Positions 39,344 through 47,734 of a stretch of DNA of 64,000 bases are shown piece after piece; position 1 is the stretch's first letter, and every line of letters starts with the position of its first letter. Location: NCBI RefSeq assembly GCF_026810225.1, contig NZ_CP113865.1, positions 349,001 through 413,000 on the forward strand, written 5' to 3'. The translations under genes and the position numbers were made by a program. This DNA comes from Caldicellulosiruptor morganii (lineage in GTDB: Bacteria; Bacillota; Thermoanaerobacteria; Caldicellulosiruptorales; Caldicellulosiruptoraceae). The notes beneath the pieces are model-generated. The model was not told where the DNA came from, searched no databases, and saw only the letters and a program-made list of their open reading frames with translations.

Positions 39344-40828
39344 TGTGTAAAATCCCTCTGGTTAGAATATGGATCGTCTTTATCAGCACCGTTCAATTCA
39401 TTGTACTGCCTACGACCATTGGTGTGAAGGATATGCTACGCCGGGCTTTCGCCTGTTCTTGACACCAATGGTCTTAAGCAGTTATTAAAAACTAACGATG
39501 GTGATAAAGGTTATTTTATTGAAATAACCTTATCCTCCACTCTTTCCATAATTCTTTTTTGCCACTCGAAATACTCAGTCAATATTCTTAATACTTCCTC
39601 CCTGAAGCCCATTTCTCATCCTGTTCCATTAACAAAGCTCCTATTAAACGAATACCAGACTCTCGGTTTGGAAATATTCTTATAACTCTTTCACGACGAC
39701 GAATTTCTTCATTTAACCGTTCTGACATATTAGTAGTACGAAGTTTCCTTCGATAAGGCTCAGGAAGTTCTAAAACTGCTATTGCGTCTTCAAACCCTTC
39801 TTCTAAAATCTCCATTGCTTTTGGAGCTTTATCTCTATATTCATCTAATACTTGATTTAATAGCATTCTTGCTGCTGAGGGATCTGGTGCTTCAAATATG
39901 GCTCTTAGTTTGGCATGTAATTCTCTTTGTAAAGCCTTTGGAGACTTATCAAGGATATTTCTCATAAAATGTGTTTGGCACCTTTGCCACGTAGCTCCCT
40001 GGAAGTGCCGACAAATAGCTTGTACAAGGCTACTTATGATGGTCCGAAACTACTAAATCAACTCCAATAAAGCCCTCTTTGCTTCAGCCATGAAAAGAAT
40101 TCACTTAAAGCTTTCTTCTGATTCACTGTCTCCTATCATAAGACCTAATACTTCTCTATAGCCATCTTCATTTATGCCTACAGCAATTAATACGCTGCGT
40201 TGACGAACACGTCCCTCTTCTCTTACTTTTATCACTATTGCATCAACTATAACAAAGGGAAAGCTTTTTTCTTTTAAAGGTCTTGAATTCCACGCTGTAA
40301 TAATAGGATCGAGATTTTTGCAAAGCTCGGAAATTGTAGATTTTGAAAATTCAGTTCCACAAAGTTCATAAGTGATTTCTTCGATTTTCCGGGTAGATAC
40401 TCCATTAACCACCATCTCCATTAGTGCTAACAAAAGAGCCTGCTCACTTCTCTGGTAACCAGCAAAAAGATCAGTGCTAAATTTACCATTACGAAGTCGT
40501 GGAACTCTCAAAGTAAGAGTCCCTACCCTGGTAACTAAACTTCTTGAATAATAACCATTACGATAATCCTGTCTTTCTTCTGTCCTTTCATAAGGTTCAG
40601 CTTTAACTTGTTCAGTAGCTTGAGCTGCTAAAATTTGATTAAGTACAGATTCTAATAATTTAGCTAACTTTTCATCTTTTGTTCCTTTTACAAAAAGGTA
40701 ATGCAAAATTTCAGAGTCTATGGTAATATTGTATTGAGCCATTTCCTATCCCTCCAGTTAGATTTTTGTTCTGTTTCTATTTCTATTCTAACCAGAGGGT
40801 GGGAAATGGCTCAACCCCTTTTTACACA
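39344..40828 (-). mobile_element. Decayed IS256 (Mutator)-family element
   Basis: Both ends begin with TGTGTAAAA reading inward, and both share CCCTCTGGTTAGAATA a little further in. The 40.8-kb end has about 20 extra bases (AGGGGTTGAGCCATTTCCC) between these blocks that the 39.3-kb end lacks. The transposase inside is broken in several places. Two hairpins lie between the transposase and the 39.3-kb end: GACCATTGGTGT (39414-39425) with its complement at 39462-39473, and AAGGTTATTT (39507-39516) with its complement at 39522-39531. No clear 8-bp target duplication was found. Confidence 0.75.
39588..40742 (-). pseudogene. IS256-family (Mutator) transposase, multiply frameshifted
   Basis: The first part (40742 down to 40101) is an intact N-terminal two thirds: DNA-binding region, then FVIVDAIVIKVREEGRVRQR carrying the first catalytic Asp. 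Between 40101 and 39966 the coding path continues only by changing frame at least three times: pieces reading EFFSWLKQRGL, GVDLVVSDHHK (second Asp) and LVQAICRHFQGATWQRCQTH lie in different frames. The end (39965 to 39588) is intact again with RTTNMSERLNEEIRRRERV containing the final Glu. All catalytic residues can be traced but no active enzyme is encoded. Start ATG 40742 with GGAGGG upstream. Confidence 0.88.
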
Positions 40829-40829
40829 A

Positions 40830-41015
40830 TTATATAGACTTAACTCTAAAAACATCTTCATAAATTAAATAAATCCATTTTATTTTCGTTTTCAATATTA
40901 TATCTTGAGATTTTCCAAAAGCAGCATTAAGTCCACCAATAACTATACCTGTTAATATAAACACTATAACAATGATTTTAAGTAATAATACTTTTCTATT
41001 GGAGTTATTCTTCAT
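40830..41015 (-). CDS. Small membrane-anchored protein, possibly truncated
   Basis: 61 residues from ATG 41015, which overlaps the end of the marR gene and has GAAGGA before it. One transmembrane helix (VLLLKIIVIVFILTGIVIGG) and a short tail. The stop lies one base from the border of the IS256 element, so the present gene may be the N-terminus of a longer membrane protein, for example an efflux component as often follows marR, cut by that insertion. No family recognised. Confidence 0.55.
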   Translation of the reverse strand: MKNNSNRKVLLLKIIVIVFILTGIVIGGLNAAFGKSQDIILKTKIKWIYLIYEDVFRVKSI

Positions 41016-41454
41016 TTTTTCCTTCAACCTTCTTCCTTACATTTTTTAATATGCTGGCAAGTACTTCATCTGCTAAATTAAGCATAGATTCATCAACTCC
41101 TTCTAATACTAAGTCGCTCCATTCTTTAAGAATATCGGTAAAAATCAGTTTGAATTTTTTTGCTTTATCAGTTAATAAAAAAATATATGATCTGCTATCC
41201 GCAGAATTTTTCTGGCGTAAAACATAATCTTTTTTTTCTAGAGACTGCATTATTCTTGTCATCACACTTTTATCGTAGTGAAGTTCATTTACTATTTGTT
41301 CTTGAGTTCTACCTTCTTGTCCATATAGAGATAATAATACAAGTCCTTCTGCTGCATTTAATCCATACTTTTTTAAAGAATTTTTTAAAAATAATTTAAA
41401 ATATTTATCAATTATAAGCATATGTCTACCAATAGAAGTATATTTTATTTTCAT
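41005..41454 (-). CDS. MarR-family transcriptional regulator
   Basis: 149 residues with the MarR winged-helix fold: dimerisation helices at both ends, recognition region RTQEQIVNELHYDKSVMTRI and the wing KKDYVLRQKNSADSRSYIFL. MarR proteins repress their own operon until a small phenolic or drug ligand binds. A palindromic site overlapping its promoter (41470-41520) supports self-regulation, and the following small membrane gene would be cotranscribed. ATG 41454 has GGGAGG at the proper distance. Codon use is rich in TTA and ATA like the neighbouring cassette, suggesting acquired DNA. Confidence 0.88.
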   Translation of the reverse strand: MKIKYTSIGRHMLIIDKYFKLFLKNSLKKYGLNAAEGLVLLSLYGQEGRTQEQIVNELHYDKSVMTRIMQSLEKKDYVLRQKNSADSRSYIFLLTDKAKKFKLIFTDILKEWSDLVLEGVDESMLNLADEVLASILKNVRKKVEGKNEE

Positions 41455-41777: not shown

Positions 41778-42188
41778 CTATAGATATATAGCCATGCTTT
41801 CAATTTCCTTACCTTTATTTAGTTCATAAAATATTTCTGGTGCTTTATATTTTAAGCTGGAGTGAAGCCTTTTTGTATTGTAGCGCTTCATAAACCTTGC
41901 AACTTCAGCATAGGCATGTTCAAAACTACAAAACTCGTGGATTCCTAAGCATTCATCCTCAAAAATTCTGTGAAATGCTTCTATATGGGCATTTTTATTA
42001 GGAGTCCTGCAAGGAATTCTTTCATGGTATATATTTATTTCATTGCAGCTTTCCTCAAAAAGGTTACTTGTAAACTGAGGTCCATTATCAGTTCTTATTA
42101 CTGGTTTTACATCAGCACTATAGAGCTCCCTTTTTAAAAGACAGCGCTTCAAAAGTCTTACAGCATCTGTGCTTTCGCACCTGTAGCA
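41778..42188 (-). pseudogene. IS3-family transposase OrfB, 5'-truncated
   Basis: Only the C-terminal third of an integrase-type (DDE) transposase remains: VIRTDNGPQFTSN with the second catalytic Asp, HIEAFHRIFEDEC with the catalytic Glu, and the IS3-type ending RYNTKRLHSSLKYKAPEIFY. The frame can be followed upstream through CYRCESTDAVRLLKR to about 42188 and then ends at the promoter of the next operon. The first catalytic Asp and OrfA are missing. Confidence 0.85.
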
Positions 42189-42190
42189 AT

Positions 42191-42219
42191 TTGAATTAAG
42201 TGCAATTATGTGTTATAAT
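42191..42219 (+). promoter_or_regulatory. Promoter of the D-Asp/Mur-ligase cassette
   Basis: TTGAAT (42191-42196), 17-base spacer, TATAAT (42214-42219). It starts immediately beyond the truncated IS3 fragment and should drive the four plus-strand genes from 42263 to 46034. Confidence 0.7.
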
Positions 42220-42262
42220 ACTTTTAAAAAAGGTTATATTTTAAATATCAGGGTGAGTAAAA

Positions 42263-42463
42263 ATGGAAGGAGATAAAATTAAAAAATTTGAAGAATTTTT
42301 TACAAATTCCTTTAGGGATGGAAAAGTAGTAAGAGAATTGAGGTTATCTTCTGATGAAGTAGAATACATTAAGAAAAGATATCCAAATGTTACAGTATCT
42401 AAATTGAGTGGGTTTGAAAATAATAAAGATAAAAATTGGTATACAGTTAAATTAGGCTTATAA
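42263..42463 (+). CDS. Small hypothetical protein (66 aa), first gene of cassette
   Basis: 66 residues, charged, no membrane segment, no cysteine; sequence starts MEGDKIKKFEEFFTNSFRDG and ends NWYTVKLGL. AGGGTGAG lies before ATG 42263 and the promoter is 44 bases upstream. I recognise no family. As leader gene of an operon with peptide-bond ligases it could be a regulator, a carrier or a substrate peptide, but nothing in the sequence decides this. Confidence 0.6.
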   Translation: MEGDKIKKFEEFFTNSFRDGKVVRELRLSSDEVEYIKKRYPNVTVSKLSGFENNKDKNWYTVKLGL

Positions 42464-42520
42464 ATTTTTACTTATGAATAATAGAATAATAGAATTACAT
42501 TAGAAAGTAGGTTGTGAGAT

Positions 42521-43714
42521 ATGGAACATAGGAATAAAGCAGTTGTACTTGGAGCAAATTATTATATTGGACTTAGTGTTATTAGATGCCTTGGGAGTGA
42601 AGGTGTTAAAGTAGCAGCAGTTGATTATTCTAAAAAAGGTACATATGGATTTTATTCTAAATATTGTTCAGAGATTTTAGTAGGTCCACACTATAAGGAA
42701 AAACCAGAGGAGTTCTTGCAGTTTTTAATAGACTATGCAAAAAAGCAAGAACATCCTCCTGTACTATTCCCTTGTGCAGACCCATATGTAGAGTTTGTTG
42801 ATAAACATTTAGATGTTTTAAGACAATACTATTTAATCCACAATATTGAGCAGGGTTTATATACTAAATTAATGAACAAAGGGACTTTAAGGGATTTAGC
42901 GATAGAACATGGAGTTAGAGTTCCAGAAACAATAAGTGTTGATGAAGAAAACTTTGTTGAAAAAGTTGAAGAACAAATTAAGTATCCCTGTTTAGTAAAG
43001 CCTGTGGATTCACATACCTTCGTTTCGATATTTAGAAGAAAGCTTTTTAAGGTTTATAACAGAGAAGAGCTACTCTCCTGTGTTCAAAAAGCGAAAGAGG
43101 CAAATACTGAAGTTATAATTCAAAGAATTATAAAGGGTTTTGATGACTGTATGTATACCTTTGATGCTTATTTAAACAAAGATTCAAAGGTAACACACTG
43201 GGTTACGTGCCAAAAGATGCGTCAATATCCAATAAACTATGGTGCTTCAGTGTATACAAAACAAAAATATGTGCCAGAGCTTTATGATATAGGAGCAAAG
43301 TTTTTAGAAGGAGTAAAGTTTAAGGGATTTGCTGAAATAGAATTTAAAAAGGATGAAGAAACAGGTAATTTCTACTTAATTGAAGTTAATGTTCGAACAA
43401 CAAACTTAAATAATTTATTATACAAAGTTGGAATTAACATGCCCTACATTGCGTATAGGGATTTAACAGGCAATCCACTTCCAAATGATGCGGTTACCTG
43501 GGATACAAATAGGGCATTTTGGTATGCATATGAAGATATTTTGGCAATAAAAGAATATATACGAACAAAACAATTAACGCTATCTCAAGTTATTGCCTCC
43601 TTTTTTAGACCAAAGGCCTATGCTATTTGGGATGTTAAAGACCCAAAACCATTCTTTGTATTTTTAAATTCAAAAATATCAAGGGTTTTTGAAAAGATAT
43701 CTAAAAAAGGTTAA
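42521..43714 (+). CDS. ATP-grasp ligase, D-aspartate ligase-like
   Basis: 397 residues with ATP-grasp architecture: N-terminal pre-ATP domain (AVVLGANYYIGLSVIRCLGS), central lid with YPCLVKPVDSHTFVSIF, and a metal site near GFAEIEFKKDEETGNFYLIEVNVRTTN (split: EIEF and LIEVNVR). The closest family by memory is the D-aspartate ligase (Aslfm) of enterococci and lactococci, which adds D-Asp to the lysine of peptidoglycan precursors and is encoded beside an aspartate racemase; a racemase-like gene is present two genes downstream. It could equally be a general carboxylate-amine ligase. No membrane or signal region, so cytoplasmic. Leu codons are mostly TTA, unlike the surrounding core genes. Confidence 0.75.
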   Translation: MEHRNKAVVLGANYYIGLSVIRCLGSEGVKVAAVDYSKKGTYGFYSKYCSEILVGPHYKEKPEEFLQFLIDYAKKQEHPPVLFPCADPYVEFVDKHLDVLRQYYLIHNIEQGLYTKLMNKGTLRDLAIEHGVRVPETISVDEENFVEKVEEQIKYPCLVKPVDSHTFVSIFRRKLFKVYNREELLSCVQKAKEANTEVIIQRIIKGFDDCMYTFDAYLNKDSKVTHWVTCQKMRQYPINYGASVYTKQKYVPELYDIGAKFLEGVKFKGFAEIEFKKDEETGNFYLIEVNVRTTNLNNLLYKVGINMPYIAYRDLTGNPLPNDAVTWDTNRAFWYAYEDILAIKEYIRTKQLTLSQVIASFFRPKAYAIWDVKDPKPFFVFLNSKISRVFEKISKKG

Positions 43715-43742
43715 AAATTTTGTTTGTTGAGAGGGGAGCAAG

Positions 43743-45284
43743 ATGGTTAAATTACACGATTTAATAAAATGCCTTGATGAAGTAGAAATAAGAAATGATA
43801 AAAATGTTGATATAAAAGGTATAGCATACAATTCAAAAAACGTTTTACCTGGAGATTTGTTTGTATGTATAAAAGGATATAAAACAGATGGTCATAAATA
43901 TATTTTAGATGCTGTTACAAATGGGGCAGTTGCACTTGTTGTTGAAGAATTCCAAGATGGATGGACTATACCACAAATTAAAGTAAAGAATAGCAGAGAG
44001 GCTCTATCAAGATTAAGTGATAAGTTCTATGGTAGTCCTTCCCAAAAAATTAAGGTGATAGGTGTAACAGCAACTAACGGTAAGACAAGCACAACTTTTA
44101 TGACCAATGCAGTTTTAGAAAATAACGGTTTTAAAACAGGTCTTATAGGAACAGTTGCTGTTAAATATGGAAACACTTTAATACCTGCAAGTTTAACAAC
44201 TCCAGAATCATTAGACCTACATAGATATTTTGATAAAATGTATAAAGAAGGGGTTACCCATGTAACTATGGAGGTGTCCTCTTCAGCACTTGATTTAAAA
44301 CGAGTAAATGATGTTGATTTTGATATTGTTGTTTTCAATAATATAAGTAGAGAACATATAGATCTTCACGGTTCCTTTGAAGAGTACTTTAGAGTAAAAT
44401 CAAGCCTTATAACTAATGCAAAGGAAAATAAATTTGCAATATTAAATTTAGATTGCCCTTATGTTGCTTCTCTTGTGGATAAAACAAAGGCAAAGGTTAT
44501 AACTTACGGGGTTGAAAATCCAAATGGGCATATTTATTGTAAAAACTTAGACCTTTCAACAGGAAGAGCAAAGTTTACAGTTGAAATAAGAAAAGAGTTT
44601 AGAGGAGAAGATATTCTATACACACCAACCTCCTTTGATATAGAACTTAAAACTCCAGGATACCATTCTGTTTACAATGCCATGGTTGCAATAACTGTAG
44701 GATTAATATGTGGTGTTCCAGTTGATGTAATAAAGGATGCCTTATTAAAGTTTGGTGGTGTAGAGAGACGTTTTGAAATAATATATGAAGAAGATTTTAA
44801 AATAATAGATGATCATTTTGCAAACCCAGGAAATATTGATGTAACTTTAGAGACACTACAAAAGATGAAGTATAATAATTTAAAATTAGTTTATGCTATA
44901 AGAGGTAATAGAGGGCCTATAGTTAATAGAGAAAATGCAGAAACAATTGTAAAATGGGCATCTAAGTTAGGTTTAAAGGAAATAATAGCAACGTTAAGTA
45001 GATCTCATACAACAGAGAAGGATAAGGTTCAAGAGGAAGAGGTAAGAGTATTTAAGGAAGTTATGACTAAAGCAGGCATAAATGTTATTTTATACGATGA
45101 ACTATATGATGCAGTAAAACACGCAATAAAAGAAGTAGGGAAAGATGATGTTATACTTCTTGCAGGTTGTCAAGGTATGGACTATGGAGCAAAGGTTGCA
45201 CTTGAAATTATAAGAGAATTAAATCCTAATATAGACACAGCAAAGTTATTTAAACCATTACAAAACAGAGTTGCAGGTGTATAA
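43743..45284 (+). CDS. MurE-like Mur ligase with atypical substrate motif
   Basis: 513 residues, three-domain Mur ligase: N-terminal UDP-binding-type domain (GIAYNSKNVLPGDLFVCIKG), ATPase domain with P-loop GVTATNGKTSTTF, MEVSSSALDLKRV and NISREHIDLHGSFEEYF, and C-terminal domain. Two canonical MurE features are altered: VDYAHTPD is replaced by IDDHFANPGN, and the amino-acid selecting DNPR region is replaced by TLSRSHTTEKDKV. It therefore probably does not add meso-diaminopimelate and is unlikely to be the housekeeping MurE. ATG 43743 has GAGGGGAG upstream; the gene follows the ATP-grasp gene by 28 bases. It likely acts on the same pathway as the D-Asp-ligase-like enzyme. Confidence 0.8.
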   Translation: MVKLHDLIKCLDEVEIRNDKNVDIKGIAYNSKNVLPGDLFVCIKGYKTDGHKYILDAVTNGAVALVVEEFQDGWTIPQIKVKNSREALSRLSDKFYGSPSQKIKVIGVTATNGKTSTTFMTNAVLENNGFKTGLIGTVAVKYGNTLIPASLTTPESLDLHRYFDKMYKEGVTHVTMEVSSSALDLKRVNDVDFDIVVFNNISREHIDLHGSFEEYFRVKSSLITNAKENKFAILNLDCPYVASLVDKTKAKVITYGVENPNGHIYCKNLDLSTGRAKFTVEIRKEFRGEDILYTPTSFDIELKTPGYHSVYNAMVAITVGLICGVPVDVIKDALLKFGGVERRFEIIYEEDFKIIDDHFANPGNIDVTLETLQKMKYNNLKLVYAIRGNRGPIVNRENAETIVKWASKLGLKEIIATLSRSHTTEKDKVQEEEVRVFKEVMTKAGINVILYDELYDAVKHAIKEVGKDDVILLAGCQGMDYGAKVALEIIRELNPNIDTAKLFKPLQNRVAGV

Positions 45285-45323
45285 ACAAAAAATATGCAGT
45301 ATCAAGAAAGAAGGGAAAAAAGG

Positions 45324-46034
45324 ATGAATGACAAGATTATAGGAATAATTGGAGGTATGGGACCAGAAGCGACCGCAGATTTATTTATGAAAATAATACA
45401 AAAAACAAAGGTGGAAAAGGATCAAGATCATTTTAGAATTATAATAGATAACAACCCTAAAATACCAGATAGAACAAAGGCAATATTATATGGTGGGGAA
45501 AGTCCAGTAGAAGAGCTTATAAAAACTGCAAAAAACCTTGAAAAAGCAGGTGTTGATGTTGCTTGCATTCCATGCATGACATCCCATTATTTCATACAAG
45601 AAATACAAAAGAGCGTATCATACCCAATAATAAATGCCTTTGAGGTAGTAAGAAAACATATAATTAAGCATTATCCAAATGTTAAAAAAATTGGGGTTTT
45701 AGCAACTACAGGTACTGTAAAAATGGGTATGTATGAAAAATATCTTGAGTTTGCAAAGGTTATATATCCTTCATCAACAATTCAAGAGGAGAAGGTGATG
45801 GAGGCGATATATGGAGAGAAGGGAATAAAAAGAGGTGTTAAAAATGAAATACCATTAAATTTATTGAGGGATGCAGCAAAACATCTGATTTCTCAAGGAG
45901 CAGAGCTTATAATACTTGGATGTACTGAAATAGGGTTAGTATTAAAACAAGAACACGTTGAGGTTCCTGTGATTGATCCGATGGATGTTTTGGCAGATGA
46001 ACTCATAAAGTACCACCCAGGTGAAGGTGAATAG
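45324..46034 (+). CDS. Aspartate/glutamate racemase family protein
   Basis: 236 residues of the cofactor-independent two-cysteine racemases: IIGIIGGMGPEATADLFMKI at the N-terminus, first cysteine in CIPCMTSHYF and second in ILGCTEIGLVL. The GGMGPEAT start is characteristic of aspartate racemases rather than MurI. The usual CNTAH around the first cysteine is CMTSH here, a small change that may affect substrate. ATG 45324 after AAGAAGGG is used rather than the upstream in-frame ATG 45294. It would supply a D-amino acid, probably D-Asp, to the ligases encoded upstream. Confidence 0.85.
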   Translation: MNDKIIGIIGGMGPEATADLFMKIIQKTKVEKDQDHFRIIIDNNPKIPDRTKAILYGGESPVEELIKTAKNLEKAGVDVACIPCMTSHYFIQEIQKSVSYPIINAFEVVRKHIIKHYPNVKKIGVLATTGTVKMGMYEKYLEFAKVIYPSSTIQEEKVMEAIYGEKGIKRGVKNEIPLNLLRDAAKHLISQGAELIILGCTEIGLVLKQEHVEVPVIDPMDVLADELIKYHPGEGE

Positions 46035-46166
46035 AACCATTTTTATCCATATATAGGGGACATCTTAAAAATTATATAATCTATAAATTGTTTAGTTATT
46101 GGCAAATGTGTATTAAAGTTTTTTTCGAATTGCCTAAAAAATGCAATTTTAAATTAAGTACTTCAA

Positions 46167-46199
46167 TTTTTGATAGCTTATTTCATAAACTATCAAAAA
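46167..46199. repeat. 10-bp inverted repeat after the cassette
   Basis: TTTTTGATAG (46167-46176) and CTATCAAAAA (46190-46199). A weak stem without a following T-run; may be a poor terminator or an IS end. Confidence 0.4.
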
Positions 46200-46223
46200 A
46201 CGACAACACATTGTAGCAACAAT

Positions 46224-46308
46224 CCCCATCTTAATTGTGATAAAATACAATTGAGATGGGGTGATTTTTGTGGACAAATATATACTAATGAAGGAAGTAG
46301 AAAAATTA
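46224..46308 (+). pseudogene. 5' fragment of another gene cut by the ISL3 element
   Basis: A leader hairpin (CCCCATCT...AGATGGGG with inner AATTGT/ACAATT, 46224-46261) is followed by a GTG start at 46270 with GGGGTG before it, reading VDKYILMKEVEKL and then running into the ISL3 end at 46309. It looks like the start of a transposase gene, but only 13 codons remain and the rest is not found beyond the element. Confidence 0.45.
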
Positions 46309-47699
46309 GGCTCTTTGTCAAGTAGTGGGGTGGGTATTCTGAATGCCCACCTTTTTAGTTTTTTCAAGCATACATTAAATGTTATACATACCTATTATAG
46401 GTAAGCTACTGCAAAAAACCAATACCACACCCGCCCACTCATATAGTGGGTTTTTAAATATTCAAACTTTTCAACTTATCTACCACAACTGTACAAAATC
46501 CTCTTCCTGAATCTCTCAAAATTCCTGTATCCAAATCCATTCCTTTTTAGTACCTTTATTTTGTTGTTAAAACCCTCTGTCATACTATTAGTATACGGAA
46601 CATCAAATGCATTTACTATCTCAGAAAACCAGCTCCTAAAAACCTTTACACATCTCATAAATTCAGAAAGTCCACTTTGCTCTGCTTTCTCTATCCACTT
46701 TTTTAGTTTAAGTTTCGCTTCTTCAGAATTACTGCTCTTTAACACTCTCTTAAATTCTTCTTTGAGTTGATGGGCTTTCCTCAAATCTTGGCTGCAGAAA
46801 AACATTACTTCTAATTCTTCTCTTTGCTCAGGTTCAAGTTCTTCATAACTCTTCAATAATAACTTCCTGCTCCTTTTAAAATACTTCCTCAAATTACTTC
46901 CTAATTCCTTTTGTACCCTTTTCCTCACATTTTCTAAAGCCCAATAAACGTATCGGGTAAAATGAAATTTGTCTATCACTATTTTAGCATTTTTAAAATA
47001 CGTTTTTGCTACCTCTACAAATGGTCTCCACATATCACAGATAAAATATTTTACTTTATCTCTACCTTTCAGCCTCTTAAAATACTCAATTAAAATATTT
47101 TGCTTTCTATCTCTCAAAATCTCGATTATTTGCCCTTTTACAGGATCTACAATTATACATTGATATTTTGCTCCACCTGCATTACCTTTAAACTCGTCTA
47201 CACATATTGCTTCAGAAGAAAACTCATCTAGAGTTTGACCTGGGTTTACTTTATCAAACAATCTCATAACTGTTGTCACTGAAACATTTGTGTGTTTTGC
47301 TATTTCTTTCATACTTGTTAAACTTCCAAGTTGACTTATAATATATGCTGCAAGTCTATTTGTCATCCTTTGAGATTTGCCTAAAAAACTTATGTGTTCA
47401 AAAAACTTCTTCCCACATGCTTTGCAGACATATCTTCTCTTTCTTATAATCAAATATGTTTTCTTGCCCATTATAGGTACGTCTTTTACCTTCTGTGTGT
47501 GATAATCATGTACCTTACTTGTAATATTACCACATTTAGGACATTTGTGGGGCTTTTGTTCCTGACTTATGTGAAGTTCTATTTCACTTTCATTCTCATT
47601 CATTTGGTGAAGAATAATATCTTTAGATTTTAAAAGTTCAGTGATATAATTAGATTTGATTTTTCCCTTTTCCCCCACCCCAATATTTATTATAGAGCC
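46309..47699 (-). mobile_element. ISL3-family insertion sequence
   Basis: About 1391 bases. The ends are imperfect inverted repeats: GGCTCTTTGTCAAGTAGTGG at 46309 and, reading inward from 47699, GGCTCTATAATAAATATTGG, both continuing into GGGTGGG. GGCTCT ends are typical of ISL3. One intact transposase is present on the minus strand. No 8-bp target duplication is visible; the left flank is a cut gene and the right flank is the tmRNA terminator. Confidence 0.85.
46476..47678 (-). CDS. ISL3-family transposase
   Basis: About 400 residues: N-terminal zinc ribbon (HKCPKCGNITSKVHDYHTQK and CKACGKKFFE), helix-turn-helix (SMKEIAKHTNVSVTTVMRLF), DDE catalytic domain with ICVDEFKGNAGGAKYQCII, FICDMWRPFVEVAKTYF and the C-terminal NSMTEGFNNKIKVLKRNGFG. 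Length and motifs are complete, so it may be active. The open frame extends past the element's end, but the start must lie inside it; GTG 47678 is the first plausible codon, though its ribosome site is unclear. Confidence 0.88.
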   Translation of the reverse strand: MGEKGKIKSNYITELLKSKDIILHQMNENESEIELHISQEQKPHKCPKCGNITSKVHDYHTQKVKDVPIMGKKTYLIIRKRRYVCKACGKKFFEHISFLGKSQRMTNRLAAYIISQLGSLTSMKEIAKHTNVSVTTVMRLFDKVNPGQTLDEFSSEAICVDEFKGNAGGAKYQCIIVDPVKGQIIEILRDRKQNILIEYFKRLKGRDKVKYFICDMWRPFVEVAKTYFKNAKIVIDKFHFTRYVYWALENVRKRVQKELGSNLRKYFKRSRKLLLKSYEELEPEQREELEVMFFCSQDLRKAHQLKEEFKRVLKSSNSEEAKLKLKKWIEKAEQSGLSEFMRCVKVFRSWFSEIVNAFDVPYTNSMTEGFNNKIKVLKRNGFGYRNFERFRKRILYSCGR

Positions 47700-47702
47700 A
47701 CC

Positions 47703-47734
47703 AAACAAAAAAGCCCTGATTTCTCAAGGCTTTT
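47703..47734 (-). terminator. Terminator of the tmRNA transcript
   Basis: On the minus strand: AAAGCC-tTGA-gaaa-TCAg-GGCTTTTTTG, then GTTTGG. It lies immediately outside the ISL3 element. Confidence 0.85.

Follow-up and report, generated by a model that had tools for sequence, protein, structure and literature searches.

For decades Gram-positive bacteria have been classified by the type of their cross-bridge and third residue, but to our knowledge few of the genes behind ornithine-based A4 walls have been assigned. For D-aspartate (D-Asp), a described system is that of Lactococcus lactis, in which AslA and RacD come from one operon and AsnH serves for amidation (PMC4155827). Here we describe a four-gene cassette at positions 42191-46034 of a 64,000 nt stretch of the Caldicellulosiruptor morganii genome (the window; NZ_CP113865.1, assembly GCF_026810225.1, positions 349,001-413,000). 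The cassette type resembles the AslA/Aslfm-RacD(-AsnH) pathway of L. lactis and Enterococcus faecium in the presence of an ATP-grasp ligase and an aspartate racemase in one operon and in the association with an asparagine-synthase-type enzyme for bridge amidation (PMC4155827). It differs in adding its own class of MurE and a small protein, P66, in having an ATP-grasp clade separate from the Asl-like one (clade 2), and in that the other stem of the host is of the diaminopimelic acid (DAP) type.

The cassette and its proposed function

Four intact open reading frames (ORFs) occupy positions 42263-46034 of the + strand, in the order and common direction given by an initial annotation made from the DNA letters:

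42263..42463, +, P66, 66-aa protein of an undescribed small family, without a Pfam family
42521..43714, +, ATPg, ATP-grasp carboxylate-amine ligase, predicted D-aspartate ligase
43743..45284, +, MurEl, divergent MurE (Mur ligase), predicted adder of L-ornithine or a similar diamino acid
45327..46034, +, Rac, Asp/Glu-family racemase, predicted aspartate racemase

We propose, with a probability of about two in three, that the cassette is a portable A4-type peptidoglycan cross-bridge module for an L-ornithine(-like)-D-Asp (L-Orn-D-Asp) bridge, and we infer its substrates, the bond formed and its expression in the host. Rac would convert L-Asp to D-Asp, MurEl would insert L-ornithine or a similar diamino acid into the stem, and ATPg would activate D-Asp and couple it to the amine on the side chain of that residue. 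The product would be an A4beta-like L-Orn-D-Asp bridge, which an AsnH-like amidotransferase may amidate in some bacilli; P66 would be a small helper. In C. morganii the outcome would be a second, mixed or conditional wall type alongside the DAP wall, since the DAP-type MurE is intact there. The initial annotation had offered a D-Asp-containing peptide, a wall modification or a polymer; a wall modification new for this group is the best-supported of these, while the polymer or cyanophycin alternative found no support.

MurEl is a distinct class of MurE

MurEl has three Mur domains (Pfam Mur_ligase_M 1e-46) and scores 307.8 bits with TIGR01085, for which the cut-off is 257.3. Its AlphaFold model has a pLDDT of 91, and the best structural matches are the MurE enzymes of Staphylococcus aureus, with UDP-MurNAc-Ala-Glu-Lys, and of Mycobacterium tuberculosis (TM ~0.8). 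With canonical MurE, whether of the DAP type (DNPR) or the Lys type of S. aureus (DNPA), it shares the fold, the domains, the ATP site, the carbamylation-site lysine and the UDP-MurNAc-dipeptide elements: TTPES, EVSS, Walker TNGKT and Lys219 are all kept. TNGKT at 111 and K219 are invariant in 16 aligned rows, and the EVSSH element is mostly EVSSS/A; the invariant catalytic motifs rule out a paralogue that has lost its function.

What sets MurEl apart is the amino-acid pocket, where DDHFAN replaces YAHTP, RGxRG (RGxRGxxxN) replaces GGDRD and GCQGMD replaces GKGHE. The initial annotation was right that VDYAHTP and DNPR are both missing; there is no DNPx of any kind, and the first motif persists in altered form as IDDHFANP. 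MurEl thus has neither the DNPR of DAP-type enzymes nor the DNPA and the GKGHE glutamate of the L-Lys type of S. aureus, GCQGMD standing in place of the latter. The arginine of DNPR contacts the second carboxylate of DAP, as a comparison of the S. aureus and Escherichia coli enzymes indicates (PMC3829189), and its absence from MurEl therefore argues against DAP as the substrate.

Two genomes that are 100% complete (G459 and G026) encode exactly four PF08245 proteins, namely MurEl and three that family models assign as MurC, MurD and a MurF-like protein; a third genome (G197) encodes these and one further member, a 432-aa protein that is probably FolC. The MurF-like proteins of these genomes score 239-257 bits, below the model cut-off of 288.6, and the MurF-like gene of both G459 and G197 has a D-Ala-D-Ala-ligase-like ORF next to it. 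Since MurEl is the sole MurE in these lineages, we conclude from fold and elimination that the class is a real, working MurE and not another kind of enzyme. Most MurEl genomes also carry a canonical MurE. This holds for C. morganii, in which a canonical DNPR-type murE lies in a complete dcw cluster (G000:C1:627389, L317), so that the host has a murE besides MurEl; the initial annotation had named the opposite case, MurEl as the sole murE of the genome, as one that would refute its reading. In the dcw cluster of Psychrobacillus there is no murE between spoVD/pbpB and mraY, and another MurE-like gene is found elsewhere (L188/L315).

Halobacillus halophilus (L186, L192, L198, L312, L108) has five MurE-type ligases, one with DNPR and the others with DDLN, DHPG/DQPG-like motifs or the MurEl type. 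Thalassobacillus pellis (L110) has a second MurEl-like ORF between Rac and P66, 59% identical to MurEl of the window. A more distant second MurEl-like subfamily (E 1e-31 to 1e-43) occurs in ~26 genomes of a phylum sample of 398; one member (L189) has DDFSHNP, RGSRG and GAQGMN.

Wall chemistry of MurEl hosts

The diamino acid is suggested by the walls of organisms that carry MurEl, which could be matched for named loci only. Halobacillus has an Orn-D-Asp wall and Chryseomicrobium an Orn-D-Glu wall. Tetzosporium has an A4beta wall of the L-Orn-D-Glu type (PMC5786688); Orn-D-Glu is given for Filobacillus in the title of a work cited in PMC1283985, and ornithine walls for Psychrobacillus species in titles cited in PMC11376405. 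Wherever the wall chemistry of a named MurEl host found here is known, it is thus of an ornithine type, and from this correlation MurEl is predicted to use L-ornithine or a related diamino acid. Among these five genera only Halobacillus has the full ATPg-MurEl-Rac set, whereas Psychrobacillus, Filobacillus and Chryseomicrobium are without a close ATPg and have a clade-2 ATP-grasp protein; two ATP-grasp clades feeding D-Asp or D-Glu to an ornithine stem would give this split. C. morganii differs from Halobacillus, Psychrobacillus, Filobacillus and Tetzosporium, the MurEl-carrying genera with A4beta walls (L-Orn-D-Asp or L-Orn-D-Glu), in retaining a DAP-type MurE. Literature searches that addressed a second murE, the combination of MurE with a D-Asp ligase and a racemase, specificity for L-Orn, and the walls of Caloramator returned no description of the gene set, and no paper linking these genes to the A4beta wall type.

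The ligase, the racemase and P66

The ATP-grasp enzyme and the aspartate-racemase-like enzyme of the initial annotation both stand, with Pfam matches to Dala_Dala_lig_C (1e-9) and Asp_Glu_race (8e-40), respectively. ATPg has the ATP-grasp fold with the Mg-binding E-x-N, its conserved residues include K160, E272/E274, E288 and N290, and it shares an operon with a predicted aspartate racemase, as AslA/Aslfm do; it is predicted to be a D-aspartate ligase. Clade 2 includes an ATP-grasp-racemase-AsnB group beside VanY (L300), and cassette-type AsnB is 47% identical to the AsnB of that locus. A clostridial genome (G095, L029/L026) has two copies of ATPg near each other, with an integrase-type recombinase gene close by.

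Rac has both catalytic cysteine motifs (PCMTSH at 82 and GCTE at 198), and its closest solved relative is the aspartate racemase 1jfl. Its start may be at 45294 or 45327, the ATG at 45327 having the better ribosome site, GGGAAAAAAGG.

P66, an unknown in the initial annotation, belongs to a family with the pattern FxxFLxxSFxDGxxxRELRLSxxE...YP...KxWYxVxL. At another locus (L299, 1691-7744) a P66 homologue lies beside a clade-2 ATP-grasp gene, MurE, MurJ (the lipid II flippase) and FemAB, and this arrangement is, as far as gene content tells, an independent tie of the family to wall precursor synthesis.

Distribution of the cassette genes

A scan of 84,980 species genomes for MurEl gave 245 relatives, of which the best 80 were read; 77 of these have a full MurEl. 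The genes of the cassette co-occur widely outside the host, in Caloramator, Halobacillus, relatives of Bacillus and clostridia, contrary to the lack of co-occurrence that the initial annotation had given as its other refuting condition. ATPg lies within 500 bp of MurEl at 51 of the 77 loci and P66 within 6 kb at 25, while the three-gene neighbourhood for which the initial annotation had advised a search (MurEl with both ATPg and Rac) was found at 39 and all four genes at 25; Rac never occurs near MurEl without ATPg. In the phylum sample (thresholds E <= 1e-90 for a close ATPg and E <= 1e-53 for a strong MurEl), ATPg is present in 15/398 genomes and MurEl in 22/398, with 14 common to both (Fisher p = 2e-19, a value that ignores shared ancestry). 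The sole genome with ATPg and no MurEl is a metagenome-assembled genome that is 72% complete, and the two genes are non-adjacent in most of the genomes of this sample in which they co-occur. P66 precedes ATPg in Caloramator and follows Rac in Halobacillus and Bacillus, so that its link to the set is not that of one frozen gene order.

In several Bacillus-type operons MurEl and Rac are separated by two further genes, for an amidotransferase of the Asn-synthase type and for a C39-type peptidase with a membrane anchor. FtsX, PcsB, encapsulin, glmS and aspS were considered as functional partners and set aside as mostly lineage-specific surroundings. In Anaerosalibacter (L145, 6735-7520) an encapsulin (Linocin_M18) gene is immediately upstream of ATPg.

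Alternative explanations

Several carriers of MurEl, namely the host genus, Thalassobacillus and relatives of Bacillus, belong to DAP-walled groups; this weighs against the proposed module, and the product of the module there would therefore not be the main wall, or would be conditional. Other points count on the same side. The ornithine assignment comes from a handful of species, Lys-type hosts not being identifiable by name in the genome sample, and no wall analysis of C. morganii or Caloramator was found in the literature searched. ATPg forms its own well-supported clade, 24-29% identical to clade 2, whose own placement as Asl-like is provisional. NCBIfam names Rac a cysteate racemase (CuyB, 222.8 bits, cut-off 190; asp_race, 196.3 bits, cut-off 93.1); there are no cysteate genes among the neighbours of Rac that were examined. 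It is also conceivable that the module is the same and that MurEl adds L-lysine (A4alpha, L-Lys-D-Asp) or several diamino acids. Tissierellia-like lineages that have MurEl as their sole MurE include both Lys and Orn walls. Moreover, the Lys specificity of S. aureus MurE owes little to positive selection in the pocket (PMC3829189). We consider this alternative unlikely given the uniformly ornithine walls of the named hosts with known chemistry and the absence of Lys-walled Planococcaceae genera such as Lysinibacillus among the best 80 of the 245 loci.

A secreted or cytoplasmic D-Asp-containing peptide, polymer or osmolyte would recall cyanophycin synthesis, which likewise pairs ATP-grasp with a Mur fold, and some operons have an AsnB related to models of N-acetylglutaminylglutamine amidotransferase together with the membrane-anchored C39-type peptidase. 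Cyanophycin synthetase is a single fused protein without a racemase, however, and MurEl is far closer to MurE; a cyanophycin-like polymer was rejected because MurEl is a MurE by fold and elimination and there are no polymer genes nearby. The retention of UDP-MurNAc-dipeptide elements, the role of MurEl as sole MurE in several genomes, the wall genes among its neighbours (FtsX, PcsB/M23, MurJ, FemAB and VanY) and the lack of a polymerase or exporter make any such product very improbable. Even less probable is that MurEl acts on another carboxylate, such as the alpha-carboxylate of D-Glu, where the amino acid that it adds would be accessory to the normal stem: the rebuilt third-residue pocket and the canonical MurE in most MurEl genomes, that of the host included, would fit such an activity, which leaves unexplained the genomes with MurEl as their only MurE. 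That the cassette is a recent, non-expressed hitchhiker without a role in C. morganii is compatible with the assignment of its enzymes to an L-Orn-D-Asp cross-bridge, and is in keeping with the insertion sequences (ISs) on both sides, the foreign codon use and the presence in one species only; with four intact frames, a promoter and a terminator, and with all four proteins 97-98% identical to those of a Caloramator sp. SKW144 contig, we think it unlikely. Should the cross-bridge module be confirmed, it would name a MurE class predictive of ornithine walls, bring the putative D-Asp ligases to two clades and add an undescribed partner protein, P66; most cassette-type genes currently bear general labels (DAP-adding ligase, carbamoyl-phosphate synthase-like protein or cysteate racemase).

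Horizontal acquisition and flanking elements

The cassette lies within a larger block with the following features:

42194..46308, +, horizontally acquired block (blastn versus Caloramator sp. SKW144 contig L102)
42191..42219, +, promoter TTGAAT-17-TATAAT with extended -10 TG (sequence reading)
46224..46261, +, 16-pair hairpin, likely operon terminator, within the transferred block (sequence)
41778..42152, -, IS3-type transposase fragment, left border (integrase core, rve_3 3e-16)
46309..47708, -, ISL3-family IS, right border (transposase 46476-47708, DDE_Tnp_ISL3 3e-79)

The DNA is 95.8% identical to the Caloramator contig over 4119 columns; homology starts at the IS3-type fragment and stops at the very base at which the ISL3 element begins, and MurEl is present in one of 12 genomes of the host genus, that of C. 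morganii. The IS borders and the different codon style reported in the initial annotation were both borne out: TTA makes up 44-61% of the leucine codons in the three long cassette genes and 3/5 in P66, whereas its share in the remaining long ORFs of the window is 14%, and the G+C content is 31.7% versus 36.8% in the rest of the window. The block is, on these comparisons, a recent acquisition from a Caloramator-like bacterium. Rather more tentatively, and at somewhat less than even odds, we suggest that the 4 kb operon is a horizontally portable chemotype, by which a DAP-walled thermophile gained an L-Orn MurE class, a second D-Asp ligase clade and a racemase, and with them an alternative L-Orn-D-Asp wall; if so, a wall-type module moves between genera. 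Among the plasmid records listed, the only one with close copies of genes of the cassette (58-69% identity) is from Acetoanaerobium noterae and has the size of a chromosome.

The promoter noted in the initial annotation is present, with TTGAAT at 42191-42196, a spacer of 17 and TATAAT at 42214-42219 with an extended -10 TG, although a consensus promoter scan alone is at chance level here (18 sites versus 23 +/- 5 in shuffles). Caloramator has TATAATGAAG at the -35 position, a poorer -35, and an identical -10. In C. morganii the -35 hexamer sits where the IS3-type fragment meets the acquired block and differs from that of the donor, while the -10 is of donor type; on this reading of the sequence, the insertion may have created a hybrid promoter. 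Further upstream, a Mutator-family transposase gene split into two ORFs (39588-40742) adjoins a gene for a MarR-type regulator (41005-41454).
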